Assembly (NCBI GenBank): GCA_902579985.1
Contig: CACHIV010000002.1
Span: forward strand, 1 to 64,000
Length of the DNA: 64,000 bases
From: an uncultured Pelagibacteraceae bacterium
GTDB lineage: Bacteria; Pseudomonadota; Alphaproteobacteria; Pelagibacterales; Pelagibacteraceae
Direction of reading: 5' to 3'
Shown here: in pieces, positions 7,549-26,431 of the stretch
Numbering within the stretch: the stretch's first letter is position 1
Layout of the letters: each line of letters begins with the position of its first letter
Program-made: the position numbers and the translations under genes
The notes under the pieces: generated by a model
Told to the model about the DNA's origin: nothing
What the model saw: the letters and a program-made list of their open reading frames with translations, nothing else
The model's database searches: none

Positions 7549-7561
7549 ATATTTAGATTTT

Positions 7562-8086
7562 ATGTATCGATTATACGTCATGAGACACGCAAAATCTAGT
7601 TGGGATGATTTAAGTATTAATGATTTTGATAGACCACTTAGTAAAAGAGGCAAGAAAAATGCAAAAATGATTTGTGAATTTTTTGTTAAAAAAAAATTTA
7701 AATTCGATTATGCATTAATTTCATCATCAAAAAGAACAAAAAAAACTTTTCAAATTTTGTCCAAGAAAATTAATAAACCAAAAAAAGTTAATTTTTCAAA
7801 AGATGTATATTTAGTTGATGAGAATATAATTATAAAAAAAATTAAAGAAATATCCAGTGAATATAAATCAATTTTGATTATAAACCATGAACCATCAGTG
7901 AAAAATTTAGTACGAAATCTTACAAAAAATCATAATACGAATAATTTTAAACTAATGAATTATAAATTCCCAACAGCATCATTTGCAAAAATTGAGTTTG
8001 ATATTAAATCCTGGAATGAAGTTGAGAAAAAAGGAGTATTAAAAGAATTTATAAGGCCCAAAGATCTTCAAGATTCTAAAGAATAA
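7562..8086 (+). CDS. SixA-like histidine phosphatase
   Basis: MYRLYVMRHAKSSWDD (RHG-like motif); start trimmed from 7469. Confidence 0.8.
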   Translation: MYRLYVMRHAKSSWDDLSINDFDRPLSKRGKKNAKMICEFFVKKKFKFDYALISSSKRTKKTFQILSKKINKPKKVNFSKDVYLVDENIIIKKIKEISSEYKSILIINHEPSVKNLVRNLTKNHNTNNFKLMNYKFPTASFAKIEFDIKSWNEVEKKGVLKEFIRPKDLQDSKE

Positions 8087-8751
8087 CCAGCTGATCTCAC
8101 TGTTCTAATTAAAGGTTTTGTATTTTGAATGTTAATTGCTTGTCTTAATCTTCTAATATGAACATCTACTGTTCTAGACTCAACATATATATCTTCCCCC
8201 CAAACATTATTCAGAAGTTGTTCTCTTGAATAAACTCTTTTTGGATTTTTGATAAAAAAATCTAATAGTTTAAATTCAGTTGGACCTAAAGTAATTTCCT
8301 TATCTTTTCTATAAACTCTTTTTGTAATCCGATCTATTTTTAAATCAGTAAATTCTACAATGTCTGATGATGATTGAGGCTTAGATCTTCTTAATAAAGA
8401 TTTAATTCTAGCATTCAATTCTTTTTGACTAAAAGGTTTAGTTACATAATCATCTGCACCTGTATCAAATGCTTTTAATTTGTCTTCTTCCTCCCCTTTT
8501 GCAGTTAACATGATGACAGGAATATCATTAAACTTATTATCTTTTTTTAAATTTTTACAAATTTCAACACCAGATAATTCAGGTAACATCCAATCCATTA
8601 ATATCAAATCTGGCTGTTTTAATTTTATTTGTTTAAGAGCATCTTCTCCATTTTCTGAATGACTGACTTTATAACCTTCTTTTTCAAGATTGTACTTTAA
8701 CAAACTAACAATTGATGCTTCATCTTCAGCTATGAAAACATGAGCTGACAT
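8068..8751 (-). CDS. phoB: Phosphate regulon response regulator PhoB
   Basis: CheY receiver plus OmpR-type winged helix; next to phoU/pst. Confidence 0.9.
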   Translation of the reverse strand: MSAHVFIAEDEASIVSLLKYNLEKEGYKVSHSENGEDALKQIKLKQPDLILMDWMLPELSGVEICKNLKKDNKFNDIPVIMLTAKGEEEDKLKAFDTGADDYVTKPFSQKELNARIKSLLRRSKPQSSSDIVEFTDLKIDRITKRVYRKDKEITLGPTEFKLLDFFIKNPKRVYSREQLLNNVWGEDIYVESRTVDVHIRRLRQAINIQNTKPLIRTVRSAGYSLES

Positions 8752-8754
8752 AAA

Positions 8755-9462
8755 TCATTTTTCTCCAGTTACAATTGGCTCGGTGCCCTTAGGTCTGTCA
8801 CCTTCTAAATATTCACCTTTAACTAAATAATAAATTTGTTCTGCAACATTTGTAGTATGATCACCAATACGCTCAACGTTTTTGGTCACAAACAACAAGT
8901 GAGTTCCATCCTCTAAATTTTTTTCATTTTCTTTAAGATATTTTATAACTTCTTGCATACATAGATTTGTTAGATCATCTATTTGCTCATCACCTTCCCA
9001 AACATTTACTGCCATTGGCGCAGATCTTTCTAGATAAGCGTCTAATGTTGATTTTAATTGTTTTTGAACATTGGTAGATACTCTATTTAATGAATCTAGC
9101 AAGTTCTTTGGAAGATTTTCATTAAGCAAAAGTGTTCTCTTGGATATATTTTTTGCTAAATCACCTATTCTTTCTAAATCTGAAGACATTTTCAAAGCCG
9201 TTACTGTCTCTCTTAAATCAATTGCCATAGGTTGTCTTAAAGCAATTAAATTTACAACTTGTTGTTCAATCAAAGCTTCATATTTATCTATTTTTTCATC
9301 GTCTTTAATTACTGCTTCCGCAGAGTCGCTATTTCTTGTGGTAATGGCTTGAATTGCTTTACCCAAAGCTTCCTCACATGCACTTCCCATTTTAATGATA
9401 TTAGCATTGAGATTTTTTAGTTCTTCTTCGTAAGATTTAACTGTATGTGGTGCTTCAGACAT
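8755..9462 (-). CDS. phoU: Phosphate transport regulator PhoU
   Basis: SSDLERIGDLAKNISKR and VERIGDHTTNVAEQIYYLV repeats. Confidence 0.95.
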   Translation of the reverse strand: MSEAPHTVKSYEEELKNLNANIIKMGSACEEALGKAIQAITTRNSDSAEAVIKDDEKIDKYEALIEQQVVNLIALRQPMAIDLRETVTALKMSSDLERIGDLAKNISKRTLLLNENLPKNLLDSLNRVSTNVQKQLKSTLDAYLERSAPMAVNVWEGDEQIDDLTNLCMQEVIKYLKENEKNLEDGTHLLFVTKNVERIGDHTTNVAEQIYYLVKGEYLEGDRPKGTEPIVTGEK

Positions 9463-10217
9463 TATCCAAACCTCCCGGTTATATAGTCCTGGGTTTTTTT
9501 ATTATCAGGATTCTTAAATATTTTATCAGTAGATCCATGTTCTATCAATTGTCCTAAATGAAAAAAACCTGTATTTTGAGATACACGTGCAGCTTGAGCC
9601 ATAGAATGAGTTACAATTATTATTGTGTGCTCTTTTTTTAACTCATCAATCAATTCTTCAATTTGTGCTGTTGCTATAGGATCTAATGCTGAACAAGGCT
9701 CATCCATTAATATAACTTCAGGTCTTACAGAAATTGCTCTAGCAATACAAAGTCTTTGCTGTTGCCCTCCAGATAATCCAGTTCCAGGTTCATGCAACCT
9801 ATCTTTTACCTCTTCCCATAGTGCAGCTTTTTTTAAGCTAGTTTCAACAATTTCATCCATTTCTTGTTTTGATTGAGCTATGCCATGAATTGTTGGACCG
9901 TAAGATACATTTTCATATAAAGTTTTTGGGAAAGGATTAGGTTTTTGAAAAACCATACCAATTTTTTCTCTTAGTCTTACTACATCACAACTTTTATCAT
10001 TGATATTAAAGTCATTAATTAAAATTTCTCCTTTAACACTACAGATATCAATTACATCATTCATTCGATTAAGACATCTTAGGAAAGTTGATTTACCACA
10101 ACCAGATGGACCAATTAATGCTGTTACTTGATTTTCCTCAATATCTAAACTTATATTAAAGAGTGCTTGTTTTTTTCCATAAAAAACATCAACATCTTTT
10201 GCTTTAATCTTTATCAT
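9462..10217 (-). CDS. pstB: Phosphate ABC transporter ATP-binding protein PstB
   Basis: [35 protein letters not shown]; likely ATG at 10217 ([14 protein letters not shown]). Confidence 0.95.
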
Positions 10218-10218
10218 T

Positions 10219-11487
10219 TTAACTCCATTTTTTCTCAAACTTATGTCTTATTATTTGGGCAAATAAATTCATTGTTATTAAAAAACCAAGTAAGACCATT
10301 ATACATGCCGAGACTTTTTCTACAAATCCTCTTTCAGCACTTTCAGCCCAAATATAAATTTGAACTGGTAAACTTGCAGCAGGATCCATAGGTGATCCAG
10401 GTATCGTGTTAACAAAAGCTACCATTCCAATTAAAATGAGGGGTGCGGTTTCTCCTAAAGCTTGAGCTAAACCAATTATTGTTCCTGATAACGTACCAGG
10501 CATAGAAAGAGGAACTGTATGATGCATTGTGGTTTGCATTCGACTTGCTCCCATAGCAAGTGCTGCCTCTCTTATACTTGGTGGAACCGCTTTTAATGAT
10601 GCTCTAGCAGCTATAATTATTGTTGGTAAAGTCATTAAGGACAAAGTGATACCTCCAACTAATGGAGTAGACCTTGGTAATTGAAATATTGCCAATAAAA
10701 CTCCTAATCCTAATAGACCAAAAACTATAGATGGAACAGCTGCTAAGTTATTTATATTTACTTCAATAAAATCAGTAAATCTATTTTTAGGAGCAAATTC
10801 TTCAAGATAGATTGCTGCTAGAACTGCTACAGGAAAAGCTATCATTAAACAAACAAGTATAGAAAAAATTGAGCCCATAAATGAACTTGCTATTCCAGCT
10901 AGTTCAGCTTCTCTTGAGTCGGCATTTGTAAAAAAACTAATATTAAATTTACTTTCAACCTTACTATTTGCAACAAGTTGATCAAAAATTTTTAATTGAT
11001 AATCGCTTACTCTTCTTTGATCTTCGGGTAAATCTCTTGGATAATTTCCTTTAAAAACTTGATCTAAATCATCTGAAGCAGTTAAATAAACTTCTTTTGT
11101 TTTTCCTATTAAACTAGGGTCATTTAAAAGTTCATTTTTAATTTCTTTTTCGAAGAAATAAGACACCATTCTCTTCAATTCATTTTCTTGATCCTCATTG
11201 GCATTTAGATCTAAATCAGCCATTGATTTTAATGCTATATCGTAATAATCAGCGTCTTGTATGTCCTCTTTAGAAGGGTTTTGTTCTAACATCATTAATT
11301 CAGCATCAAAAGTTACTGGAACAATGAGCCAAGTTTTTTGAAAAGCTGAATAGCCAGTTGAAAAAATTTTAAAAATAAAGATTGTTAAAAATAAAAGTGC
11401 CATAAAAATTGCACTTTGACCGTATAAGCGAAATCTCTGCTCAGCCTTGTATCTTTTATTTAATAATTGTTCTTTATTTTTATTCAT
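10219..11487 (-). CDS. pstA: Phosphate ABC transporter permease PstA
   Basis: Permease EAA-type loop, [12 protein letters not shown]; position in the pst operon. Confidence 0.93.
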
Positions 11488-12865
11488 ATTTCTCTCTATA
11501 TTTTTTAACTACTCTTAAGGCCACAATATTTAAACAAAGCGTTACTAAAAATAATGACATACCTAAAGCAAAAGCAGCTTGTGTTTTTGGGTCGCCAAAA
11601 GCTTGATCACCAATTAGAATAACTACAATTTGAGCTGTAATTGTTGAAGTAGACTCTAATGGATTTAAAGTTAAATTAGCAGCTAAACCAGAAGCCATAA
11701 CAACTATCATTGTTTCTCCAATAGCTCTTGAAACACCAAGTAAAATAGATCCAACTATCCCCGGCAATGCTGCAGGAAAAATAACTCTCTTGATTGTTTC
11801 TGATTTAGTTGCTCCCATAGCATAACTTCCATCTCTTAAACTTTGAGGTACACTTGTAATTACATCGTCACTTAAACTTGAAATAAATGGTATGATCATA
11901 ATACCCATTACCCCTCCTGCCGCTAAAGCACTCTCAGCTGAAACTTCAAGACCCATAGAGGTTCCTAATTCTTTTAAAAATGGGCCAACAGTTAGGGCAG
12001 CAAAAAAACCATAAACAACTGTTGGTATACCAGCTAAAATTTCAATTAAAGGTTTTGCATATTGTCTAACTTTACTTGATGCATATTCAGCTAAATAAAT
12101 TCCACTCATTAATCCAATTGGGATAGCAACGCACATAGCAATAAATGCAATAAAAAATGTGCCTGCAAAAATAGGGACCGCTCCAAAAGTATCAGAATAC
12201 ATTGACGGATCTAAAGCCTCAGAAGAATCTCTAACAAAAGCTTTTGCTGGATACCAGTGAGTTCCAAAGACAAAATCAAATAATGGAATTACTTTAAAAA
12301 AATCTATAGTTTGAAATATAAGTGAGAAAACTATTCCAACAGTAGTTAATATTGCGGCTAATGAAGCTGTAAATAAAACTGCGTTCAAAAATTTTTCAAC
12401 TGGTTCTCTTGTTCTAGAATTAGATGAAATTCTTTTATACGCATAAGCAACAGAGGCAATGATTGCAGATAATACTATAACAACTTTTGAACTTTGAGCT
12501 ATTGATCGAAGACTTAAATATTTTTCAGCTGAAGCTTCAATAAAAGGTGTAATTTCTCCAGTGAATTGACCTCGAGACAATGCTTTTGTTTTTTCGTATA
12601 TTAAATTTAATTCATCATCAAGATAACCTTGATTTGAATAATCACTTAAAACTAATAGTTTTACAATTGTGGGCTCAAAAATTGCCCATAAAGAAAAAAT
12701 TATAAAGGCTGGTATTGCACACCAGATCGCAAGATAATAACCATAAAATTGAGGTAATGCAGTTAATCTTTTTTTGGTAGATTGAATTGTGTATGCTTTT
12801 TTACGTCCAAAATAATAACTTGTGAAACCTAGAAGAACAATAAATGTAAACAATATTAAGTTCAA
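11480..12865 (-). CDS. pstC: Phosphate ABC transporter permease PstC
   Basis: AIGETMIVVMASG, IPTVVYGFFAALTVGPFL; position in the pst operon. Confidence 0.93.
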   Translation of the reverse strand: MNLILFTFIVLLGFTSYYFGRKKAYTIQSTKKRLTALPQFYGYYLAIWCAIPAFIIFSLWAIFEPTIVKLLVLSDYSNQGYLDDELNLIYEKTKALSRGQFTGEITPFIEASAEKYLSLRSIAQSSKVVIVLSAIIASVAYAYKRISSNSRTREPVEKFLNAVLFTASLAAILTTVGIVFSLIFQTIDFFKVIPLFDFVFGTHWYPAKAFVRDSSEALDPSMYSDTFGAVPIFAGTFFIAFIAMCVAIPIGLMSGIYLAEYASSKVRQYAKPLIEILAGIPTVVYGFFAALTVGPFLKELGTSMGLEVSAESALAAGGVMGIMIIPFISSLSDDVITSVPQSLRDGSYAMGATKSETIKRVIFPAALPGIVGSILLGVSRAIGETMIVVMASGLAANLTLNPLESTSTITAQIVVILIGDQAFGDPKTQAAFALGMSLFLVTLCLNIVALRVVKKYREKYE

Positions 12866-12903
12866 AGAATCTCCTTTATTGAGGACTTTACTCTTATTTT
12901 AAA

Positions 12904-12931
12904 AAAAAGGGGTCTAAAAAGACCCCTTTTT
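12904..12931 (-). terminator. Hairpin with T-tract between pstS and pstC
   Basis: AAAAAGGGGTC-TAAAAA-GACCCCTTTTT; on the transcribed (-) strand a stem followed by a T run. Confidence 0.8.
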
Positions 12932-12955
12932 AATCATTTGTTAACTGAGGAATAA

Positions 12956-13987
12956 TTAATTACCCATAGCAACTAGTTTGGTAGCATTAGTTCTAGTTGT
13001 TTTATACAACTTAGAGTCTAATGGCACTAAACCAATGTCTGCTAGGTAACCACCTTTTCCAATAGCTTTCTTTGTTGTGAATTCTTTCACAAACTCATGT
13101 AAGCCTGGAATTACTCCAACGTGAGCTTTTTTCACGTAGAAGAATAAAGGTCTAGCAACAGCATAACTGTAGTCTTGAATAGACTTCAATGATGGTTGTC
13201 CACCATCAATACTTGCTGCTTGTAATTTATCTTTTGCAGCTAAGAAATAACTGAAACCAAAGAAACCAAACATATCTTTATCTTGAGTTAACTTTTGGAT
13301 GATTAAACTATCATTTTCTCCAACTTCAATAGCAGCACCATCTTCTCTGTAAAGTTTTTGAGGTTTTTTGTATTTTTTATTTCCAGCTTCAAAACCAGCT
13401 TTATAAAGAGCTTTAGCTTCTTTAGTCATACCTTTTTTCATTACTAAAGAATTCCAAGCATCTCTAGTTCCTGATGTTCCTGGTGGGATCATCACTGAAA
13501 TTTTTTGTTTTGGTAAACTAGAGTCAATTTGATCCCAAGTTTTATAAATATTTGGAACTAATTTACCATCAACAACTGTATGAGCAGCTAGTGCTAAATA
13601 CAAATGTTCTTTAGTAAAGTTTACTGGTTTTGCATCTTTGCTGTAAGCTAATGTAATACCATCGTTACCAATTACGATCTCAACGATTTCATTTACACCA
13701 TTTTTCTTACATAGAGCTTTTTCTTTATCTTTCATAGCTCTTGATGCGTTTGTAATATCTGGATGTTGTTCACCTACACCAGCACAGAATAGTTTAGCTC
13801 CACCACCAGTACCAGTAGATTCGATTACAGGAGTTTTAAATCCTGAACCACCAAATCTTTCAGCAACAACTGTTGCATAAGGGAATACCGTAGAAGAACC
13901 AACTATCTTAATTTGATCTCTTGCTTGAGCAACAGTTGCAATTGAAAGTGCAACTAAAGAAGCAATTACTATAGTTAGTTTTTTCAT
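12956..13987 (-). CDS. pstS: Phosphate-binding protein PstS
   Basis: Signal peptide, IKIVGSSTVFPYATVVAERF, PPGTSGTRDAWNSLV. Confidence 0.95.
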   Translation of the reverse strand: MKKLTIVIASLVALSIATVAQARDQIKIVGSSTVFPYATVVAERFGGSGFKTPVIESTGTGGGAKLFCAGVGEQHPDITNASRAMKDKEKALCKKNGVNEIVEIVIGNDGITLAYSKDAKPVNFTKEHLYLALAAHTVVDGKLVPNIYKTWDQIDSSLPKQKISVMIPPGTSGTRDAWNSLVMKKGMTKEAKALYKAGFEAGNKKYKKPQKLYREDGAAIEVGENDSLIIQKLTQDKDMFGFFGFSYFLAAKDKLQAASIDGGQPSLKSIQDYSYAVARPLFFYVKKAHVGVIPGLHEFVKEFTTKKAIGKGGYLADIGLVPLDSKLYKTTRTNATKLVAMGN

Positions 13988-14057
13988 TATCTTTAATCCT
14001 TTCGTTATTTATTAAATAAAAGATGACAGACTCATATAAATTTATTGAATCTTTAAT

Positions 14058-14075
14058 ATTACAAAATTGTTACAC
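14058..14075 (-). promoter_or_regulatory. Candidate Pho box upstream of pstS
   Basis: On (-) strand GTGTAAC-AATT-TTGTAAT: two 7-mers at 11-bp spacing, as in the Pho-box architecture; about 70 bp upstream of the pstS start. Confidence 0.5.
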
Positions 14076-14096
14076 TTTTGTTAAAAAGGTAACTTT

Positions 14097-14705
14097 TTAG
14101 TTGTAATTTTTTGATATAATTATCTGATCAGTATCAGTTTCTAGACCACCAATACATGAAACAGGGTTTACCTGTTCATTAAGAGCGAGTTCATTGCTTG
14201 GACGTAAAGTTATTTCTAGTTTTACTAAGTTTACTAATTCTTCTCTAATTTCTTCATCATATCTCCAGCTAGGCCATGAGCTTGGGGTTGAAAATATAGA
14301 GGTTAAATAACTTGCAGCCATAGTATATCTGTAATTACTCAAATTCTCATTCCTCAATAAAAAATCTCTTACAGAATTAAAAATATTCCTACATCTAAAA
14401 GAATCTGAAAAATAATTTTCCTTCTTGAGATTTCTATTCATAGGAACAGAAACAATTAAATCAATTGAATTTTTAGAATACGAGGTAACTACGTCTGTAT
14501 AAAATTCAGCTTCAGTAACTTCTAAATGATCTTTTATAGAAGGATATGAGGTTTTTAAATCTGCTTCTAATCTAAAAATTCCAATATCAAAAACTGTAAG
14601 TTGCTGATTTCTTAATAATGTTGTGATATCTTTAGAAAAAACACTTGTTGTTATAAAGCTTAATAAAAAAGCAAAAATCAAAATATTTTTGAATATTTTA
14701 ACCAT
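14097..14705 (-). CDS. Secreted/periplasmic protein of unknown function between phoR and pstS
   Basis: N-terminal signal peptide (MVKIFKNILIFAFLLSFITTSVFS); no family recognised. Confidence 0.75.
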   Translation of the reverse strand: MVKIFKNILIFAFLLSFITTSVFSKDITTLLRNQQLTVFDIGIFRLEADLKTSYPSIKDHLEVTEAEFYTDVVTSYSKNSIDLIVSVPMNRNLKKENYFSDSFRCRNIFNSVRDFLLRNENLSNYRYTMAASYLTSIFSTPSSWPSWRYDEEIREELVNLVKLEITLRPSNELALNEQVNPVSCIGGLETDTDQIIISKNYN

Positions 14706-14795
14706 ATAAAAAATTAATTAAAAGATTAACATTAATCAAGTAAAGAATTGTTAAAAAAACCTTCTAAAACTATTACAATACAATATTTTTTAAAT

Positions 14796-15941
14796 TTAAG
14801 TTTTCGCTGGTAAATAAATTTGAATTTCAGTTCCTTTATTCTCTTCACTTAGAATCTCATAGTGTCCACGATGTTGAGTAATTATATGTTTAACAATAGC
14901 TAATCCTAAACCGGTTCCACCAACCTTATTACTTTGTTCAAGATCTACTCTAAAAAATCTTTCTGTAATTCTAGAAATATATCTTTGAGGAATGCCAACA
15001 CCTTCGTCTTTAATACTGATCATAAAATTTTTTTCTAACAATTTACCGTCGCTAATTTTGCTTGATATAAAAATAGACTTATTTTCCTTTGAATACTTAA
15101 TTGCATTATCTAAAAGATTAGAAAAAACAGTTTGTAATTTTTTTTTATCTCCAATAACAATTGTTGGATTTGCGAGAGATAAATTAATGTTTAATTTCTT
15201 TTTTTTTAAAATAATCTCAAAATTACTGATGATTGTTTTGAAAAGATCATTTATATCAACTAAAGAGTTTGGCCTTATGTGTTCTTCTAATTCAATTCTT
15301 GTGAGTATTAAAAGATCATTAATTAAATTTTCCATTCTATTTGATTGATCAGTGATTATTTTCATAAATTTTTTTTTAGCCTTTTCATCATCAGACGCTG
15401 GACCTTCAATAGTTTCTAAAGATCCTTTGATTGCCATTAAAGGTGTTCTTAATTCGTGACTTACATTGGCTACAAAATCAGTTTTAAATTTTTGTGCTTT
15501 TGTAATTTCAGTAAAATCTTTAAAAAATAACACAACAGAATCTGGTTCAGTAAATAAATGAGTTGGGCCAGGGATGATATAAATCTTATAAAATTGATAT
15601 GATGGCAAGTCTATTTCAACATCAATATTTTTTGTTTTATTTTCAATTATAGCTTTTTCAATATTTTCTATTAATTCTGGTTTTCGAATTACAGAAGAAA
15701 TGTTTTTATCAATTAAACTACTTCCAAATCTTTTTAATGCACTTGGATTAGCATATTTAATTATATTAAATTTATTTAATGCAAAAAACTGATCCTCAAG
15801 CTCATCAATAATTACTCTTTTAGTTTTTTCTTCTCTTTTATTAATTATTGTAGCGGTATTTATTGATTTGTTTTTTTTTTGATTAAGTAAATATAGGAGA
15901 TAAACCATAACAACTATAAGTAGAATGATGAAATATTCCAT
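14796..15941 (-). CDS. phoR: Phosphate regulon sensor histidine kinase PhoR
   Basis: PAS region, VSHELRTPLMAIKGSLET, GGTGLGLAIVKHI; pst/pho context. Confidence 0.9.
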   Translation of the reverse strand: MEYFIILLIVVMVYLLYLLNQKKNKSINTATIINKREEKTKRVIIDELEDQFFALNKFNIIKYANPSALKRFGSSLIDKNISSVIRKPELIENIEKAIIENKTKNIDVEIDLPSYQFYKIYIIPGPTHLFTEPDSVVLFFKDFTEITKAQKFKTDFVANVSHELRTPLMAIKGSLETIEGPASDDEKAKKKFMKIITDQSNRMENLINDLLILTRIELEEHIRPNSLVDINDLFKTIISNFEIILKKKKLNINLSLANPTIVIGDKKKLQTVFSNLLDNAIKYSKENKSIFISSKISDGKLLEKNFMISIKDEGVGIPQRYISRITERFFRVDLEQSNKVGGTGLGLAIVKHIITQHRGHYEILSEENKGTEIQIYLPAKT

Positions 15942-16005
15942 AAATTTAGATAAGTTAATTTTGCATCATTACTCTTTTTAATGCAAATAAATTAATAAAA
16001 GTTTA

Positions 16006-17013
16006 CTAATGATTTGGTGAAATATTATTAAAAAATATTTTTGCTGTTTCTTCCCAAGTAAATTTTTTTGCAAATTCAATACAATCATTTCGATCAACTT
16101 TCAAAGCTTTATGGGCTGAAACTTTAAGATCATTATCTAAACAATTTATTTTGGATCCTTCAAATATATCTTTAGGACCTGGAACAGGATAAGCAGCGAC
16201 AGGAGTACCACAATTTAAAGCCTCGGTAACTACAATTCCAAATGTATCTGTTTTACTAGGGAATACAAAAACATCAGAAGATGCAAAATATGATGCAAGT
16301 GCACCATTTGTTTTTTCTCCTAAAAAAATATCTTTAGGGAATTCTTCTTTTAATTTTTTTAAATCGGGTCCTTTTCCTATTATTATTTTTGTACCTTCTA
16401 AATCACATTCTAAGAAAGCTCTTATGTTTTTTTCAACTGCAACTCTTCCAACATAAATCCAAATTGGTCTTTTGTGATGTAATTCAATTTTTTTAGGTTT
16501 CTTAAAGGCTCCATGATTTCCCCCTCTGGTCCAAGTAATCATTTTATTATTATCTATACCTATATCGATTAATTCTTTTCTCATGGATTCTGTTGTTACT
16601 AAAATTCTCTCGGCCTTGTTATGAAAGTTTGCTAAGAATTTTTCAGCCCATTTTGCTGGTATAATAGGAAAGTAAAGTTTTAGATATTTATCAAATCTTG
16701 TATGGAAACTCGTAGTAAACTTTAGATTATTTTTTAAACAATATCTTCTTGCCATCGTCCCTATAGGACCTTCGGTAGCAATATGTATTGCATCAGGTTT
16801 TATTTTCTTTATTAAACTACCAACTCTTGGCCATACATTTATAGACAACCTAATTTCGTTATATTTCGGCATCGGAAAAGTTAAAAATAAATGTGGTGTA
16901 ATATATTCTATAATATGACCTTGTTCTTTTAATACATTGCCTGTTTCATGTAAGGTTCTTACGACACCATTTACTTGTGGAAAATATGCATCTGTCGCTA
17001 TTAAAATTTTCAT
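16006..17013 (-). CDS. GT4-type glycosyltransferase, probable Agt-like glycolipid glycosyltransferase
   Basis: MKILIATDAYFPQVNGVVRTLHET, FVFPSKTDTFGIVVTEALNCGTPVAAYPVPGP; directly downstream of the plcP-like gene. Confidence 0.8.
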   Translation of the reverse strand: MKILIATDAYFPQVNGVVRTLHETGNVLKEQGHIIEYITPHLFLTFPMPKYNEIRLSINVWPRVGSLIKKIKPDAIHIATEGPIGTMARRYCLKNNLKFTTSFHTRFDKYLKLYFPIIPAKWAEKFLANFHNKAERILVTTESMRKELIDIGIDNNKMITWTRGGNHGAFKKPKKIELHHKRPIWIYVGRVAVEKNIRAFLECDLEGTKIIIGKGPDLKKLKEEFPKDIFLGEKTNGALASYFASSDVFVFPSKTDTFGIVVTEALNCGTPVAAYPVPGPKDIFEGSKINCLDNDLKVSAHKALKVDRNDCIEFAKKFTWEETAKIFFNNISPNH

Positions 17014-17016
17014 TAA

Positions 17017-17829
17017 CTATGAAGCTTTTTTTAATTCTTCGGTTTTAATTGGTTTAATTATTTCTTTATTATCTAAGTATTGTTCTCTTATTTTGTCCCA
17101 ATATAATATTTCAAAACTACCATCATAATTTTCGGCTAATGCAGTGCAAGATTCAACCCAGTCTCCACAATTTAAATAATTAACCCCATTAAAATCTCTA
17201 TCCTCGGCATGATGGATGTGGCCACAAATAATTCCATCAAATTTCTTTCTTTTTGCATATTCTGAGACTGTCTTTTCGTATTCACCAATATATTTGACTG
17301 CGTTTTTGACTTTATACTTTAAAAATTTTGCAAGAGACCAATATTCTTTTCCTCTCAATCTTCTAAAAAAATTAATTATTACATTCAATTTTAATAATAA
17401 ATTATAGGCTATTGATCCAAGTTTAGATAACCATTTAGCATGTTTCATAACACCATCCCAAGCATCACCATGGACAACAACATATTTTTTTCCAGCATTT
17501 GTTTCATGAATTACTCTATTAACCATTTGGATGTCACCAAAATGCATTGGAATAAATTTTCTTAACATTTCGTCATGATTACCCATTATGTAGAAAACTT
17601 TAGTACCATGCCTTGCTTTTCTTAAAATTTTTTGAATTACATCATTATGTTCTTGAGGCCAAAAAAAACTTTTTTGCATTTCCCAAATATCTATAATATC
17701 TCCTACAAGATAAAGATTTTCAGATCTTGAGTTTTTAAAAAACTCTAAAAGTTTATTTGCCTGACATCCCTTGGTACCTAAATGTACGTCAGAAATAAAT
17801 ATACTTTTATATTTAAGTATATTAGGCAT
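17017..17829 (-). CDS. plcP: Calcineurin-like metallophosphoesterase (COG2908 type), probable PlcP phospholipase C
   Basis: SDVHLGTKGCQ, LVGDIIDIWE, MGNHDE, VHGDAWD, CGHIHHAE; paired with an Agt-like GT. Confidence 0.75.
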   Translation of the reverse strand: MPNILKYKSIFISDVHLGTKGCQANKLLEFFKNSRSENLYLVGDIIDIWEMQKSFFWPQEHNDVIQKILRKARHGTKVFYIMGNHDEMLRKFIPMHFGDIQMVNRVIHETNAGKKYVVVHGDAWDGVMKHAKWLSKLGSIAYNLLLKLNVIINFFRRLRGKEYWSLAKFLKYKVKNAVKYIGEYEKTVSEYAKRKKFDGIICGHIHHAEDRDFNGVNYLNCGDWVESCTALAENYDGSFEILYWDKIREQYLDNKEIIKPIKTEELKKAS

Positions 17830-17927: not shown

Positions 17928-18812
17928 ATGTTATATTGTTTGATTTACAATCTAAACTCTTCTTCTGGAAGAAAATCAAAATTCATAAATAGGGTTTTAT
18001 CTAAGTTAAAAGAAAATAATTATGTAGACTACTTTGAGACCAAAACAATAAATCAAGCTAAGAAAATTTTTAAAGATTTTAATCAAAAAAATTATGATAG
18101 ACTAATAGTAGCTGGTGGAGATGGATCCGTTTCTTTTGCAATTAATGAATTAATTAAAAATAATTTTAATTTTAAAGATGATTTTGCCATAGGTTATATC
18201 CCTGCTGGGACTGCAAATTTACTTCAAGCTGAATTATCAATGAATAAAAAAGTTGATGATATAGTAAATGTATTGGTCTCTAATAATTATAAACCCTCTA
18301 ATCTTGTAAAAATAAACGAAAATTATTTCTTTTTAATGGCTGGTATAGGCTGGGATGCAAAAATTGTTCATTCAATTAATTCAAAAATTAAAAAAATTCT
18401 TGGTAAAATTATTTTCGGAATTAAAGGTTTTCAATATTTCTTATTTATGAATAATAAAAAATTAAATGTAACTTTTGATGGGCAATTTTATCAAGCAGAC
18501 TGGATATTATCCTCAAATTCCAAATATTACGCTGGACATCATAAAATAAATAAAACAAATATTTTTGAAGATAAATTAGTTACCTATATATTTAAGGATT
18601 TGACTAGGATCAGTTTATTATATTCTATATTCTTAATAATTCTTAATGGTGATTTAAGTAAAAACAAAAATGTTATTACTACTTATTCACATAAAATTAC
18701 TATTGATGGAAATGATTTGATACCTGTTCAAATTGATGGAGATAATTTTGGTTCATATAAAAAAATTCATTTAAAATTATCAAATAAAAAAGTGAATTTT
18801 CTTGTGAAATAA
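17928..18812 (+). CDS. Diacylglycerol kinase family lipid kinase (COG1597)
   Basis: VAGGDGSVSFAINEL, IGYIPAGTANLLQAEL. Confidence 0.88.
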   Translation: MLYCLIYNLNSSSGRKSKFINRVLSKLKENNYVDYFETKTINQAKKIFKDFNQKNYDRLIVAGGDGSVSFAINELIKNNFNFKDDFAIGYIPAGTANLLQAELSMNKKVDDIVNVLVSNNYKPSNLVKINENYFFLMAGIGWDAKIVHSINSKIKKILGKIIFGIKGFQYFLFMNNKKLNVTFDGQFYQADWILSSNSKYYAGHHKINKTNIFEDKLVTYIFKDLTRISLLYSIFLIILNGDLSKNKNVITTYSHKITIDGNDLIPVQIDGDNFGSYKKIHLKLSNKKVNFLVK

Positions 18813-19910
18813 TTACTGCGAAATAATATTATAAATATCTTTTTCTCCAATTTTTACAGGATTATTACCAAGTCTTAATAAATTTATGCCTTTTATAATT
18901 TCATCTGAGCTTTGCTTAATATTGATATTTAGTGTTTGGAGATTATCCTCTAATTTTGCTTGTTTTTTTATTAATGATATTTTGGAATTAAAATCATTAA
19001 TTGCTTGCACATCAAATAGGTTAAATATTAAATCAAATCTTTTTTTTAAATCAAAAGAGGTTTCTGATTTATCTTTGTTTTCGTAATTAAACTGAAAAAA
19101 TTTTTCAAAAAATAAGCCTACTGCATGACCATGACTCACATTAAATAAGGAGGTAAAAGGATATGAAACAGCATGGGGTGCAGTTGTTTTTGAAATATTG
19201 ATTGCTTTACCAGCTAAATTTGATGCGATAGCCATTTCAGTTGCATTTTTTAAATTCGGATTATTTAAAAAAGAAATATAGCTGTTTATTGATACTCTTA
19301 AAGATTTAGAGGCGTATTCAACACTTTGATCATTTGATTTTTTAGAAACCAAAGATTCTAAAGCTTGTGCTATAGCATCAAAACCAGCTGAAGCTTTAAT
19401 CTTATTTGGTGCAGAAATTAAAAATTCAGGGATTAGAAAAAAATTATCTGGTATTAATAGTTGGCTTTCAAATGAATGTTTAATGCCATCTAAATAAATA
19501 ACTGCATTTGACGTTACTTCAGCCCCGGAACCTGCTGTTGTTGGTATTACTACTAATTTGCAATATTTTTTTTTAAATGGGTAAGAATAATTCACAATTA
19601 AATCAGCTAAATCAGGTCTCACATCTACAACATTTGCTATCTTTGCATAATCAATTACTGCACCCCCACCTACCGCAAGAATTAAATTTGGTTCAAAATT
19701 TCTTATAGCTTTAATTATTTCAATGAGTTCTTCTAAGATTGGAAGATTTGAATTTTTATAAAAAAATTTTATTTCTTTATTATCTATATCTTTTTTAAAA
19801 AATTTTTCAGCACCAGATGTTATAAAAGATTTTTTTCCACATAATAAAAAAATTTTTTTTAAACTTTTATCATTAATAAATTTTTTTATATCTTCAATTG
19901 AATTTACCAT
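18813..19910 (-). CDS. Iron-containing alcohol dehydrogenase, probable phosphonoacetaldehyde reductase (forms 2-hydroxyethylphosphonate)
   Basis: AVGGGAVIDYAKI, PTTAGSGAEVTSNAVI, GFDAIAQALES, FNVSHGHAVGLFF; immediately downstream of ppd. Confidence 0.82.
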   Translation of the reverse strand: MVNSIEDIKKFINDKSLKKIFLLCGKKSFITSGAEKFFKKDIDNKEIKFFYKNSNLPILEELIEIIKAIRNFEPNLILAVGGGAVIDYAKIANVVDVRPDLADLIVNYSYPFKKKYCKLVVIPTTAGSGAEVTSNAVIYLDGIKHSFESQLLIPDNFFLIPEFLISAPNKIKASAGFDAIAQALESLVSKKSNDQSVEYASKSLRVSINSYISFLNNPNLKNATEMAIASNLAGKAINISKTTAPHAVSYPFTSLFNVSHGHAVGLFFEKFFQFNYENKDKSETSFDLKKRFDLIFNLFDVQAINDFNSKISLIKKQAKLEDNLQTLNINIKQSSDEIIKGINLLRLGNNPVKIGEKDIYNIISQ

Positions 19911-21010
19911 TATTTCATAAATTGGCTCTTAATTTGAATTAAATCTTTAGGTCTTGGTAATTTCTTAATTTTATTATTTGAAACTCTTACTTCTAAAAAA
20001 CTAAGATTTCTTGAATTAATAAAATTATTCAAATTTATTTTTAAATTTTTTTTATTTTTAATAACAAAAAACTTTCTAAAACCTAAACTTTTCGAAAAAT
20101 TTTTTAAATCTATATTTTTTGTATATGTGCTTTGTCCTCCAACAGAATCGTGGATATTATTATTTAATAGAATATATTTTAAATTCTTTTCAGCAAAAGT
20201 TCCTAGTGTTTTTATTGCTCCTAAATGCATTAAAAAAGATCCATCACCATCAATACAGATTATCTTTTTTTTACTTTGTAATGAATAACCAAAAGCTACA
20301 GAAGAGGTGTGGCCCATACCACCAACCATATAAAAATCTTTACTTTTTTTATAGTTATATTTTTGTCTTATGTACATTAATTCTCTTGAGTTAAAACCTG
20401 TGCTTGAGATAATTTTTGTATTTGACTTTATATTTTCTAACAGTGTCTTGAAAAACAACTCTTTATCTAAATTAAAATAATCTTTTTTCTTTATTATTTT
20501 TTTGCTTTTTTCTAAGGTTCCATTTTCAATTAAACAAGCAACTATAGATTTATTTTTTTTTGCAATTTTAATTTGTTTGTCAAATTTTTTAAGATCTTTA
20601 TTTGATCTAATTATAGTGTATTTAATATTTAATAGTTTTAAGATTTTTTCAGTAATTTTTCCTTTTACATTATGTTGAGGCTCATCTTTTAATCTCGGAG
20701 AACCTCTCCATCCTATAATAAGAATCAATGGTATAGAGTAGACTTTATGATGAGCTATTGAAATTAATGGATTTAAAGCATTTGAAAGACCGGAGTTTTG
20801 CATATAAACACAAGGAATTTTTTTGGTTGAGAGATAGTGTCCAATTCCTATTGATACTGCTGATCCTTCATTTGTAGCAATTATATGTGTCTTTTTTTTT
20901 TTATTTTGTAAAAAAACAGAAAGTTCTTTTAAAACACTGTCTGGTACACCTGTAAAAAAGTTACTATTATTTTTTTTAAGAATATTGATTAAAGAACTAA
21001 TCTTAATCAT
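19910..21010 (-). CDS. ppd: Phosphonopyruvate decarboxylase
   Basis: FFTGVPDSVLKEL, ATNEGSAVSIGIGHYL, VYMQNSGLSNALNPL, LIIGWRGSPRLKDEPQHNVKG; GDGSFLMHLG ThDP motif. Confidence 0.93.
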   Translation of the reverse strand: MIKISSLINILKKNNSNFFTGVPDSVLKELSVFLQNKKKKTHIIATNEGSAVSIGIGHYLSTKKIPCVYMQNSGLSNALNPLISIAHHKVYSIPLILIIGWRGSPRLKDEPQHNVKGKITEKILKLLNIKYTIIRSNKDLKKFDKQIKIAKKNKSIVACLIENGTLEKSKKIIKKKDYFNLDKELFFKTLLENIKSNTKIISSTGFNSRELMYIRQKYNYKKSKDFYMVGGMGHTSSVAFGYSLQSKKKIICIDGDGSFLMHLGAIKTLGTFAEKNLKYILLNNNIHDSVGGQSTYTKNIDLKNFSKSLGFRKFFVIKNKKNLKINLNNFINSRNLSFLEVRVSNNKIKKLPRPKDLIQIKSQFMK

Positions 21011-22310
21011 TTTTTATAAGGTTAATGATTTCTTTTATCGGTATTATCTTTTTATCAATTTCAAAAGCCCTTCTTTTTTGTAAAATTGTTTTTGCAGCAT
21101 TTTGCATGGCTGGATAAGCAGCTCTCAAAAGTTGATTTGCATAAATAACTAATTTAAAACCATTCCTAATTAAATCTTTTTCATAAACTTTTGAATAAGT
21201 TGATGGAACTGAAACTAGAGGTATATAATATTTGCTTTTTTTAAAAGCATTTGCAAAAGAAAAAATCTCAGCTGGAGTTTTTTCTTTACTGTGAATTAAT
21301 ATTGCATCAGCACCAGCTTTTGAATAAATCTCTGCTCTATATAAAGCATCTTTTAATCCTTTTCCTAAAATAAAACTCTCGATTCTTGCTATTACAAGAA
21401 AATCATTTGATCTTCTTGCCGAACAAATTTTTTTAATTTTTTTTGCAAAAGTTTGGGGTTTATCTTGTTGTGTGTCACTCTGATTTTTAAATAGAGAATT
21501 TTTCTTTAATCCTATTTTATCTTCCATAATAATGGCAGAGACACCAGATCTTTCCAGAGATCTAATCAAAAATGGTAAATGTTCAAGTTGTCCTCCATTA
21601 TCAGCATCGAAAACTAATGGTTTTGTAGTCACATCCATCATATCATTTAATGATGAAACACGAGCTGAAAAATCTAATGATGAGTTATCAGGTTTTCCCT
21701 TAGTTGCGGAGTCAGTTAAACTTGATGACCACATCCCATCAAACTCAACAGAGGAATTTTTATTTAAAATTTTAAGGTTTTCAATAATAAGACCTGTCAA
21801 TGAATTATGTGACTCTAAGATCCTTACAATTTTTTTTGATAACATTAGTCTTTTTAGTCTTGAAATTCGGTTTTCAGGTAAAGTGGCAATTTCTAAAATT
21901 TTATTTTTAATTTTAGAAGATGAAATATTTTTTGTATATCTAGGTTCTATCAATTTTCCTGACCACTTTTTTAATGTTTTGATAACTTTTGTTCTTATTC
22001 TTTTTCTATTATCATATTTCCAATCATCTCCATGAACCAAGTAATCTGGTTTAATTTTATTTAAATTGTTGATGTAATCATCTGTTGTCTGTGGAACAAC
22101 TTTTGAAACATATTTTAAATTTTTTACTAACAATTCTCTATTTTTATAATTAAGAATTGGAATAGATTTGTATGAGGCAATAGCCTCATCGGTCAAAAGT
22201 CCAACAATAACCTCACCATACTTTTGTGCTATTTTAAGTATATTTATATGACCTTCGTGTAAAAAATCTACAGCAAGAGGAACATAAACTTTTTTTTTAA
22301 ATTTTTTCAT
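21003..22310 (-). CDS. pepM: Phosphoenolpyruvate mutase with N-terminal cytidylyltransferase domain
   Basis: Catalytic motif EDKIGLKKNS (EDKX5NS of PEP mutase) in the C-terminal domain; N-terminal HEGHINIL and ISSSKI nucleotidyltransferase motifs. Confidence 0.93.
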   Translation of the reverse strand: MKKFKKKVYVPLAVDFLHEGHINILKIAQKYGEVIVGLLTDEAIASYKSIPILNYKNRELLVKNLKYVSKVVPQTTDDYINNLNKIKPDYLVHGDDWKYDNRKRIRTKVIKTLKKWSGKLIEPRYTKNISSSKIKNKILEIATLPENRISRLKRLMLSKKIVRILESHNSLTGLIIENLKILNKNSSVEFDGMWSSSLTDSATKGKPDNSSLDFSARVSSLNDMMDVTTKPLVFDADNGGQLEHLPFLIRSLERSGVSAIIMEDKIGLKKNSLFKNQSDTQQDKPQTFAKKIKKICSARRSNDFLVIARIESFILGKGLKDALYRAEIYSKAGADAILIHSKEKTPAEIFSFANAFKKSKYYIPLVSVPSTYSKVYEKDLIRNGFKLVIYANQLLRAAYPAMQNAAKTILQKRRAFEIDKKIIPIKEIINLIKND

Positions 22311-22740
22311 ATAATGATTTTTTTAATTTTGATGAAGAAATGCCCCTAGTATATGGAAATTCTAATACTTTACCACTCCATTTTTTCATAGTTTTTATCA
22401 ATCTTAATCTAACATTTGATTGAATATTTTTTTTCCAATCAGTGCCGTGAACAAAATAATCAAATTTATAAAACTTAGAATACTCAACATATTTAAGTCC
22501 ATCTATTGGGATAATTTTATCAATACATTTTATTTGGGACAATATTTTTTTTCTATTTGAGAATTTAATTAAAGGTTTCCTTTTTTTATATCTTTTAATA
22601 CCATTATCTGTCATTAAACCTACGATTACGGTACCATATTTTTTTGCTTTTAATAGAATATTTATATGCCCATAATGAAATAAATCTGCTGCCATTGGCA
22701 CAAAAACAAAGGGTCTTGGAAAATTTTTTAAAGACTTCAT
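22297..22740 (-). CDS. Stand-alone cytidylyltransferase-like protein, paralogous to the N-terminus of PepM
   Basis: HYGHINILLKAKKYGTVIVGLMTD ... KKWSGKVLEFPYTRGISSSKL, closely parallel to the PepM N-terminus. Confidence 0.88.
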   Translation of the reverse strand: MKSLKNFPRPFVFVPMAADLFHYGHINILLKAKKYGTVIVGLMTDNGIKRYKKRKPLIKFSNRKKILSQIKCIDKIIPIDGLKYVEYSKFYKFDYFVHGTDWKKNIQSNVRLRLIKTMKKWSGKVLEFPYTRGISSSKLKKSLYEKI

Positions 22741-22796
22741 TTTAAAATAACTAAATCATTTTATATATATTTTATAAAAAAAAGCTATATAAATAG

Positions 22797-24101
22797 ATGA
22801 TGGTCTCAAATATTAAACTTAGAAAAGTATTGAATGATTTAAAAAGACGTCCTGAAGATGCAGCAAAAGATTTAAAAATAAGTGTAACAAAAATTAATAA
22901 TATTCTTTCAAATAAATCTAAACTTGATTTTAAGACAATTAGTCGTGCAGTAAAAATATGGCCAATAAATTATGGAGATTTTTTTTCTTTTTATGATGAT
23001 GCGAAACTAGGTTTTAAAATTATGAGACATAATGAGTCAGAAAAATCAAAACGTATTATGAAAAGAGGAGGCAAACCATATTATTTATATAAAGATACAG
23101 TTATGAGTAAATTATCACCGTTTAGACCTGAATTGATTACCGAATTAGAAGTAGTTGCAAATGATAGTCCTAAAAATTCTAAAGTTAGATTTAATAATGG
23201 TCATTTTCTTCATCAATTTACCTATTTTATAGGTCCGGTAAATTTTTATTATATTGAAAAAAATAGAAAAAAAGTTGCAAAAATGAACACTGGAGACTCT
23301 ATGTATATTAGCCCGTATGTTTGTCACTCATTTACAACAAGAAAAAATAAAAAAAAGTTGTTAGGAAAAATTTTGGCATTAACATATTCAGATAAGCTTG
23401 ATAATGAAACTTTAAATGAAATAACAGCTCTAGGTTTTAATATCACAAAAAAATACAAGATAAATTTAAAAGATCATAAAACCGCATTTTGGTCAAACAT
23501 AGAAAATTTTTTTAAAAATTCATCTATAACATTTAAAGAATTTAAAAGAAATACTTCAATAGATTTAGATAAAATAAAAAAATCAAAAAAAATACCTTCA
23601 GAAAAAATAATTAAAAAAATCTCACATAATTTAAAATTAAATTATCGAGATTTATTCCCACCAAATAATACTTTGGAAGTAAAAATACAAAAATATTCTA
23701 ATTGTAAAAATTGGTTTTATCCTTCAATGAAGAAGAAAGATTATTTATTCAAAGAACTCACTAATATACCTCAATTACCTTTTTCAAGAGGCTATGAATT
23801 AACTTTACTAAATGAAAAAAAACATAAAAGTTTTTTAGATGTGCCATCTCATCAGTACATTTATAATTTAGGAACTACTAAAATCAATTTCATTATAAAT
23901 GGAAAAAAAGGCTATCTTAACCCATCTGACTCCATCTATATAAAACCAAATAATAAACATATTTTTTATAAAAAAGGTAAATTGTTGATTTTAAGACTTG
24001 GAGGAAGGATATCTGGTGATAGTTTGTATCAACTATCTATGATATCAGAAAAAAATCTGAAAAAAACTATTGATGACAATAGACCTTGGTTTAACAAATA
24101 A
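22797..24101 (+). CDS. mpnS: HEPD/MPnS-family cupin dioxygenase with N-terminal HTH, probable methylphosphonate synthase
   Basis: N-terminal XRE-like helix, cupin with H136-x3-Q140 and H177 (NNGHFLHQFTYFIG ... MYISPYVCHSF); Ile at the position where HEPD carries Glu; adjacent to pepM, ppd and Fe-ADH. Confidence 0.82.
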   Translation: MMVSNIKLRKVLNDLKRRPEDAAKDLKISVTKINNILSNKSKLDFKTISRAVKIWPINYGDFFSFYDDAKLGFKIMRHNESEKSKRIMKRGGKPYYLYKDTVMSKLSPFRPELITELEVVANDSPKNSKVRFNNGHFLHQFTYFIGPVNFYYIEKNRKKVAKMNTGDSMYISPYVCHSFTTRKNKKKLLGKILALTYSDKLDNETLNEITALGFNITKKYKINLKDHKTAFWSNIENFFKNSSITFKEFKRNTSIDLDKIKKSKKIPSEKIIKKISHNLKLNYRDLFPPNNTLEVKIQKYSNCKNWFYPSMKKKDYLFKELTNIPQLPFSRGYELTLLNEKKHKSFLDVPSHQYIYNLGTTKINFIINGKKGYLNPSDSIYIKPNNKHIFYKKGKLLILRLGGRISGDSLYQLSMISEKNLKKTIDDNRPWFNK

Positions 24102-24107
24102 ATTTAT

Positions 24108-25223
24108 CTAATTAAATATTTTGGAAAAATTATCATCAAAAAATTTTACTGTTTTTCCATAATTATAAAAATTTTCATTCAAAAATTTGTCAATTTCATT
24201 TTTTTTAAATTCTAATATAGATTTATTGATTACATAATTAATGTTATTAATTTGATCGGTATAAATTTTGTAACCAAATTTGTTTTTAACTAAGTCATCG
24301 ATTGTGTTTAAATTTTTATACATATCAAATTTTTCATTATGTATTTTATCAAACTCACCATAGTAAATAGCGGGCCTTTTAAATATTAACATATATTCTA
24401 TTGATATACCTGAATTATCAGTAATTAAGCATTTGGCTTTTGTAAGTGCTTCGAAATTACCAGCAAAATCATCAAAAATAAAATTATCACCATGAAATTT
24501 TTTTTTATAAAAACTCATTAATTTTTTTGATCTTTTAATGGTTTCAGGATGTGGTCTAAATCTCACCTTATGTCCATCGTCTAATAGTTTTTCTATAATT
24601 TTTTCAAAATCTTCATTAATAAAATTTTTTTTATCTTTATTCCATGACGGAGCAACTAGAATCTCATTATTATCTGAATTAATTTTATCAATTTTTCTTG
24701 TTAAATAATCAAAGTAAAAAAAACCAGTTTTAATTAATCTTTTTTTTTTTAAATTTTCAATTGATTCTCTTTGTTGAATTTCTCTTATTTGATAATCTCC
24801 ATTACATAATATTGTATCATAATTATCAAAAGCAGCTGAGGTATAAATTTTAGTAGTACTTACAGCACCATGAAAATAATAGATATAATTCTTAACAAAC
24901 TTATTTTTTTTTATTATTGAGTTATTCAAATCTGTCAAAGTCATAAACAAATTTTCAACGGAAACGCTGGTGAAGAAATATTGTAATAAAAATCCACTAC
25001 TAATATGAACATTTATTACATCTAAATTATTAATCTTATCTTCTGCATCAGAGGAAACATAATAAACTTCGCCAGGAAATTTTTTGGCTAAATATTCAAT
25101 AATTAAATATCCAAATTTTAGATATGATTTGCTCTCAGAATAAAATAAAAATTTTGGTTTTATTTGATTAATTTTATTTATGGTTTTAAATATAAGAAAA
25201 AATTCTTTAATTTTTTTCAACAT
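24108..25223 (-). CDS. CDP-glycerol glycerophosphotransferase-like (TagB/TagF-type) protein
   Basis: FHGAVSTTKIYTSAAFDNYDTILCNGDYQ, VRFRPHP, CLITDNSGISIEYMLIFKRPAIYY. Confidence 0.75.
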   Translation of the reverse strand: MLKKIKEFFLIFKTINKINQIKPKFLFYSESKSYLKFGYLIIEYLAKKFPGEVYYVSSDAEDKINNLDVINVHISSGFLLQYFFTSVSVENLFMTLTDLNNSIIKKNKFVKNYIYYFHGAVSTTKIYTSAAFDNYDTILCNGDYQIREIQQRESIENLKKKRLIKTGFFYFDYLTRKIDKINSDNNEILVAPSWNKDKKNFINEDFEKIIEKLLDDGHKVRFRPHPETIKRSKKLMSFYKKKFHGDNFIFDDFAGNFEALTKAKCLITDNSGISIEYMLIFKRPAIYYGEFDKIHNEKFDMYKNLNTIDDLVKNKFGYKIYTDQINNINYVINKSILEFKKNEIDKFLNENFYNYGKTVKFFDDNFSKIFN

Positions 25224-25240
25224 ATATCATCTATATTTAT

Positions 25241-26431
25241 TTACCTTATTCTCCCATAAGCATCTTCGTATCTTATTATATCAGTTTCCTTCAAAATTGA
25301 TCCTACCTGAGCTTCAATAATTTTTACTGGTTTTTTATAAGGATTTTCTATTCTATGAACAGCACCTAATGGAATAAAGATGGTTTCATCAGGTTTCATT
25401 GTAAAATATTTCTTATTTAAGGTAATTTTAGGTTTACCATGAGTAACTACCCAGTGCTCAGCCCTATGATGATGTTTTTGAAGGCTTAGTATACCTTTTG
25501 GTTTTACATATAATTCTTTAATCAAGAATTCTTTACCATTAAATAAATTAACATAACTACCCCAAGGTCTGTGGAATACATTTTTCTTTTTAAAATAATG
25601 TCTCTTATTTCGTCCATACATCTTACAGATTTCTTTCCAAGATCCTAAATCAGACCAAGGAATATCTAATTTAATCGCATTAATTTCCTTTGTTTTTTCT
25701 AATATTGCATAGTCAAAAGACTTAGCTGTTGCTTTGGTAAACGCTTGTTTGTTTAAATAATACACATTACTTTTATATTTTGCTTTTGTTACAGCTTTGT
25801 TACAGCTTCGGTAAATATTTGGTTGGTATTTCTTAAAATTATTAATAATTGAATCTTTTCTTAAATAAAACATTCCAGAATTCCAATAGCCTTTTTTACT
25901 AATTATTTGTTTAGCTTTTGTCTCTTTAGGTTTTTCTACAAATTTAGATACTTTGGTATTTTTTGTTAAAAAATAACCAAATTCGCTTGAGGGCATTTTA
26001 GGTTTGATCCCAAAAATAAAGATATTATTTTGAGTTAATTTCTTTTGGTTTTTTTTAATAGCTTTATTGAATAAACCAACCTTCTCTATTAAATGATCAG
26101 CTGCTAAAAACATTAATGGTTGTTCGTTTGAAATATCCTTTATTAATGCCGTACTTAATATAGCTGGTGCGGTATTTCTTTTTGCTGGCTCTAAAACTAT
26201 CTTGAATTGTCTTATTTTGTGTTTCTTTAAGTGTTGTTTAACTTGTTTTAGATATTTTGCATTAGTACTTATAATTGGAGCATCAAATATAGATGCTTTA
26301 ACTCTCTCTAAAGTTTTGCCTAATAAAGTCCAATTACCAAAATCTATAAACTGTTTAGCTTGATGTTTTTTGGCATTCGGCCAAAGTCTGGTTCCTGCTC
26401 CACCACATAAGATGACTGGGCGAATTTTCAT
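25241..26431 (-). CDS. manC: Mannose-1-phosphate guanylyltransferase / mannose-6-phosphate isomerase
   Basis: VILCGGAGTRLWP, FLAADHLI, FVEKP, WNSGMFYLRKD; C-terminal cupin RPWGSYVNL...LQKHHHRAEHWVV. Confidence 0.9.
   Translation of the reverse strand: MKIRPVILCGGAGTRLWPNAKKHQAKQFIDFGNWTLLGKTLERVKASIFDAPIISTNAKYLKQVKQHLKKHKIRQFKIVLEPAKRNTAPAILSTALIKDISNEQPLMFLAADHLIEKVGLFNKAIKKNQKKLTQNNIFIFGIKPKMPSSEFGYFLTKNTKVSKFVEKPKETKAKQIISKKGYWNSGMFYLRKDSIINNFKKYQPNIYRSCNKAVTKAKYKSNVYYLNKQAFTKATAKSFDYAILEKTKEINAIKLDIPWSDLGSWKEICKMYGRNKRHYFKKKNVFHRPWGSYVNLFNGKEFLIKELYVKPKGILSLQKHHHRAEHWVVTHGKPKITLNKKYFTMKPDETIFIPLGAVHRIENPYKKPVKIIEAQVGSILKETDIIRYEDAYGRIR

Follow-up and report, generated by a model that had tools for sequence, protein, structure and literature searches.

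In oxic surface water, one source of methane is the methylphosphonate (MPn) contained in high-molecular-weight dissolved organic matter; other microbes release the gas by breaking MPn down. The window analyzed here, a 64,000-nucleotide stretch of DNA from an uncultured member of the Pelagibacteraceae (SAR11), carries genes for PEP mutase through to methylphosphonate synthase. This raises the question of where such a pathway ends: at free MPn, or at MPn attached to a surface acceptor. MPn synthesis in SAR11 has already been published (Acker 2022; 2022 ISME J survey), and the core claim is not new. What is new is that the synthase is accompanied by a TagF-like transferase and a second cytidylyltransferase, together with the exact definition of the empty site. 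The preferred reading, to which a probability of roughly 0.65 is given, is that an island of 6.4 kb is responsible for MPn synthesis and probably also for coupling the product to an acceptor at the cell surface.

The preliminary description of this DNA regarded a phosphonate producer in a lineage better known for consuming phosphonates as ecologically important. Such a producer comes as no surprise: pepM is reported from 18% of SAR11 cells, with surface glycoproteins proposed as the phosphonate site, and cultured SAR11 strain HTCC7217 is reported to both produce and consume phosphonate (PMC8931226); mpnS is reported from Pelagibacterales, where neighboring genes suggest phosphonate esters (PMC9381506). 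Among 397 genomes of the family, PepM exceeded the cut-off in 53 and mpnS was found in 4.

Pathway to Methylphosphonate

The following features were recognized:

18813..19910, minus strand: Fe-ADH family protein (PF00465/PF25137; PepM-linked Fe-ADH clade), predicted phosphonoacetaldehyde reductase (PhpC role)
19910..21010, minus strand: phosphonopyruvate decarboxylase (Ppd/AepY; TIGR03297, 363.5 bits, cut-off 312.5)
21003..22310, minus strand: fusion of an N-terminal Fom1-type cytidylyltransferase, CT1 (PF01467, residues 15-136), and a C-terminal PEP mutase, PepM (TIGR02320, residues 152-434)
22297..22740, minus strand: stand-alone cytidylyltransferase, CT2 (PF01467; nearest 5x3d, 118 bits), predicted CTP:methylphosphonate cytidylyltransferase
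22741..22796, no strand: divergent intergenic region between CT2 and mpnS, 56 bp
22797..24101, plus strand: methylphosphonate synthase, MPnS (367 bits to 6b9s)
24108..25223, minus strand: TagF-like GT-B transferase, TagX (AF2 pLDDT 91; Foldseek TagF E 8e-13), predicted (methyl)phosphonyl transferase

PepM would convert PEP into phosphonopyruvate, which Ppd would decarboxylate to phosphonoacetaldehyde, pulling the reaction forward. Conversion of phosphonoacetaldehyde to 2-hydroxyethylphosphonate (2-HEP) could be catalyzed by the Fe-ADH, and that of 2-HEP to MPn by MPnS at a 2-His-1-Gln iron site. The enzyme families and intact motifs support this previously proposed route, and judging by sequence a real pathway to MPn is very probably encoded.

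PepM scores 361.6 bits against TIGR02320 (cut-off 319.6) and carries the EDKX5NS motif as EDKIGLKKNS. In alignment to Mytilus PepM, its acidic, Arg and His residues are kept at the positions that we take to be the active site. Inactivity of PepM or Ppd had been named as a possible objection; both keep their catalytic motifs.

The profiles matched by the Fe-ADH are those of general Fe-ADH families only. In a tree of other PepM-locus Fe-ADHs and 28 other Fe-ADHs from SAR11 and relatives, it groups with the PepM-linked enzymes, archaeal ones included, and is split from the 28 with support of 100/99. Clustering away from phosphonoacetaldehyde reductases, the other objection named, is not seen in this comparison of PepM-linked with other Fe-ADHs, and the reductase activity stays a prediction. 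From its context, the Fe-ADH is likely a phosphonoacetaldehyde reductase. Three of its four metal ligands, at positions presumably equivalent to those of FucO, are kept (D178, H246 and H260), with Gln replacing His at 182. A lost metal site was considered and rejected after a register check, Q182 being the sole change. Residue 182 is Gln in most PepM-linked Fe-ADHs and His in the other Fe-ADHs compared.

MPnS scores 367 bits to 6b9s (MPnS), 225 to 6b9r (the hydroxyethylphosphonate dioxygenase, HEPD, of S. albus) and about 34 to HppE. Its iron triad H136, Q140 and H177, the 2-His-1-Gln triad reportedly defined by Born et al. in 2017, is invariant in 22 relatives. The shared superfamily and triad, with the 225 bits to S. 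albus HEPD, would allow the enzyme to be a dioxygenase producing hydroxymethylphosphonate, but this is very improbable. The match to MPnS is better by 142 bits, and the residues near the triad (F137, H139, I145, F150 and MYI169-171) are those of 6b9s, while the corresponding residues of S. albus HEPD are L, Y, V, Y and VWG; on score and residues HEPD identity was rejected. Moreover, SAR11 possesses a distinct HEPD-type family, represented at the compared locus L072 (247 bits to PhpD).

This PhpD-like gene (L072:7451-8785, 247 bits to 3g7d) stands beside PepM. Members of its cluster, c18, were also seen in L062, L097, L101, L102, L104, L105 and L111, usually adjoining an adenylylsulfate-kinase-like gene; the L062 copy is near MPnS, and another copy lies in the genome of L042.

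Gene Arrangement and Selection

The gene positions given earlier within 18813-24101 are exact, and the operon-like arrangement of the minus strand holds: Fe-ADH and Ppd, Ppd and the fusion, and the fusion and CT2 overlap by 1, 8 and 14 bp, respectively. The divergence of mpnS from these genes across the 56-bp gap is likewise confirmed. No promoter signal above chance was detected in 22741-22796, and promoter and terminator scans gave no excess over shuffled sequence.

This set of genes is found, again as a group, in other SAR11 genomes; the proteins of the window are 67-92% identical to those of L039. Against L039, dN/dS is 0.08-0.10 for the Fe-ADH, Ppd and the CT1-PepM fusion and 0.19-0.20 for CT2 and MPnS; Ppd, CT2 and MPnS all have dS values above 1. 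By these ratios (0.08-0.20) the gene set is under purifying selection and, since it also co-occurs in other SAR11 genomes, is no chance assembly. In L043, which is near-identical to the window, the mpnS frame (8001-9301) is broken by a one-base difference in an A run, representing either a sequencing error or a real lesion.

The Island and Its Insertion Site

The insertion site and its surroundings are described by the following features:

8068..17829, minus strand: left neighborhood, outside the island; phoB, phoU, pstB, pstA, pstC, a pstS-like gene, a 202-aa unknown, a PhoR-like kinase, an Agt-like glycosyltransferase and a PlcP-like metallophosphoesterase
17928..18812, plus strand: left border gene, YegS-like diacylglycerol/lipid kinase, DAGK (PF00781, E 2e-23)
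18810..18815, no strand: left junction TAATTA, identical to the empty-site hexamer of DAGK stop and manC stop
25241..26431, minus strand: right border gene, mannose-1-phosphate guanylyltransferase-like, manC (TIGR01479, 365 bits, just under the cut-off of 373)

The insert between DAGK and manC measures 6428 bp (18813-25240) and includes TagX. The preliminary description took 18813-24101 as the whole gene set; the true unit reaches 25240, with TagX added. In 28 of 39 relatives the site is empty, the stop codons of DAGK and manC lying 0-2 bp apart, and TAATTA is the commonest form of this empty site. The presence of the empty site in close relatives identifies the insert as a flexible-genome island. 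A foreign base composition is unsupported: GC is 0.243 versus 0.271, and third-position GC resembles that of the neighbors.

PhoB, PhoU, PstB, PstA and PstC exceed their NCBIfam cut-offs, and the PstS and PhoR models are matched under cut-off. The Agt-like gene has a GT4 Pfam domain and the PlcP-like gene a calcineurin-like one; the plcP-agt pairing is described in SAR11 (PMC4796936). The genes of this phosphate-starvation (Pho) cluster are excluded from the island because the same genes, namely the PhoR-like, Agt-like and PlcP-like ones, also flank the empty site wherever the compared stretch extends far enough. Genes for a Ppx/GppA phosphatase and polyphosphate kinase (ppk), at 3894-7653 of the window, adjoin the Pho cluster.

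Related sets occupy the same site in L039-L041, where CT2 and MPnS are present and no TagX homolog was found nearby, and in L044, with a different gene order. Only CT2, MPnS and TagX stand at the site in L042, with PepM on another contig. A TagX homolog adjoins manC at a contig end in genome G289, and in genome G299 mpnS is elsewhere and the site is empty. In L117, L134-L136 and L147 other genes, 1.3-5.8 kb, fill the site, which may therefore accept varied cargo.

Candidate Enzymes for Activation and Transfer

Activation of phosphonates with CTP is established for Fom1, acting on HEP, and PntC, acting on AEP (PMC6697681). Both CT1 and CT2 exceed the PF01467 cut-off, with the Fom1-type domain (5x3d, recorded as PEP phosphomutase) as nearest solved relative, at 137 bits for CT1. 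CT2 has the HxGH motif as HYGH in the alignment and scores 118 bits to this PepM-fused enzyme versus about 50 to glycerol-3-phosphate cytidylyltransferase, whose model TIGR01518 it matches with 64 bits. Stand-alone relatives of CT2 with at least 50% identity were found in 5 of the 397 family genomes; two of these five hold mpnS, compared with 4 of 397 overall. CT2 relatives (50-53% identity) in two PepM loci lacking mpnS, L078 and L082, count against a CT2-mpnS link. In place of CT2, mpnS loci often carry a LicC/PntC-like gene (L044, L047, L048, L051, L053, L055, L059 and L062). The one in L044 (6718-7839) encodes a nucleotidyltransferase with an N-terminal helix-turn-helix domain; its relatives in L210 and L211, about 380 aa long and 68-81% identical, are a few genes away from TagX homologs, in two genomes of the SAR11 family that gave no match to PepM.

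TagX falls into no clear sequence family. Sequence searches of the PDB with it gave nothing usable, and a fold search was therefore run with an AF2 model built with nine homologs (pLDDT 91). In Foldseek, the predicted model found TagF at ranks 1-8 (E 8e-13 to 1.4e-11, TM 0.54-0.60) and, next below them, a capsule enzyme whose solved structure includes CMP. The best structural match is thus TagF, the wall teichoic acid polymerase (3l7i-3l7m), which is alike in its GT-B fold; TagX differs in having only 15-18% identity to it in structural alignment. PF04464 is absent from TagX at E up to 1 and matches four of the nine homologs (best 5e-12), and TagX is accordingly described as TagF-like and not filed as a TagF-family member. 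TagF uses CDP-glycerol and releases CMP. Homologs of TagX were also located at mpnS loci from Thaumarchaeota, SAR202 and Chloroflexi. PepM-positive genomes make up 9 of 16 with TagX versus 53 of 397 in the family (Fisher p 4e-5). All of these association figures, for CT2 as well, are optimistic because the genomes are related. Homologs are also found where PepM is missing from the genome, in some cases close to LicC-like genes, so the donor used by TagX need not be a phosphonate. A search of open-access literature for phosphonate with CDP-glycerol glycerophosphotransferase returned nothing relevant.

The activity of every enzyme, what CT1 and CT2 act on, and the role and acceptor of TagX are inferred. 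In the resulting scheme, CT2 would form CMP-methylphosphonate from MPn and CTP. TagX would release CMP as it transfers the methylphosphonyl group to a membrane-associated glycan or lipid, at one of its hydroxyls, and the Fom1-like CT1 fused to PepM could activate 2-HEP in parallel. For this activation and transfer of MPn the odds appear even. By gene content CT2, MPnS and TagX behave as a module, since L042 has only these three at the site with PepM on a separate contig; parts of the module are seen in marine Thaumarchaeota and Chloroflexi. The L042 set and L072, which holds PepM, Ppd and Fe-ADH, belong to one SAR11 genome, as modules on separate contigs. In a narrower proposal, put forward tentatively and at somewhat less than even odds, CT2 would serve as a dedicated CTP:methylphosphonate cytidylyltransferase and TagX as a TagF-like methylphosphonyl transferase, and together with MPnS they would form a module for attaching MPn to polymers or lipids of the cell surface.

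The End Point of the Pathway

The pathway probably does not end at free MPn, because the island contains CT2 and TagX, neither of which is needed for MPn synthesis. The pathway could nevertheless stop at free MPn, stored or released, with CT2 and TagX serving an unrelated CDP-alcohol polymer. The lack of TagX near L039-L041, its relatives in PepM-less genomes and the resemblance of CT2 to glycerol-3-phosphate cytidylyltransferase all agree with this. It is unlikely, as CT2 is nearer to the PepM-fused Fom1 type than to the glycerol-3-phosphate enzyme, overlaps PepM and remains with MPnS where PepM is elsewhere (L042). In addition, no PhnJ (C-P lyase) was found in the window's genome (95% complete), and stored MPn would not be recoverable by C-P lyase.

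Decoration could also be mixed, CT1 making CMP-HEP and TagX transferring chiefly 2-HEP, with MPn as a second, minor substituent. TagX adjoins CT1-PepM-Ppd-FeADH loci in which neither mpnS nor CT2 was seen (L098, L108 and L208), and the cytidylyltransferase domain of Fom1 acts on HEP (PMC6697681). Taken alone, however, this would leave the CT2 or LicC-like gene that accompanies mpnS unexplained, and it is rated unlikely, slightly below an end at free MPn.

Comparison with Known Systems

The mpnS loci of SAR11 and marine Thaumarchaeota were reportedly described by Born et al. in 2017. They are alike in having PepM, Ppd, Fe-ADH and MPnS together with a nucleotidyltransferase nearby (PMC9381506; PMC8931226). 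In the island, by contrast, PepM carries a fused Fom1-type cytidylyltransferase, a second protein of that type takes the place of the LicC-like partner, and the locus occupies a defined empty site beside the Pho cluster. Fom1 of fosfomycin biosynthesis (5x3d) likewise joins an N-terminal cytidylyltransferase domain to PEP mutase, but no fosfomycin genes were seen beside the fusion here, and in the island the domain is present once more as a stand-alone protein. With the Pnt (phosphonyl tailoring) pathways using PntC (PMC6697681), the island would share CTP activation for surface attachment; it differs in MPn or HEP instead of AEP, PF01467 instead of PF12804, and a TagF-like instead of a LicD-like transferase.

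Seven further PepM loci (L074, L076, L077, L078, L082, L083 and L087) carry a PhnW-like aminotransferase (scored for L074 only, under cut-off) and/or a CDP-alcohol phosphotransferase-like gene, recognized by eye, which suggests that other SAR11 make AEP and perhaps phosphonolipids.

Significance

For the binding of MPn to polymers, the locus offers two candidate enzymes, one for activation and one for attachment. The exact empty site permits comparison of producers with non-producers. SAR11 is among the most abundant bacterial groups of the ocean, and if the reading of the CT2/TagX module is true, the bound phosphonate pool of seawater would be fed by MPn on polymers or lipids.
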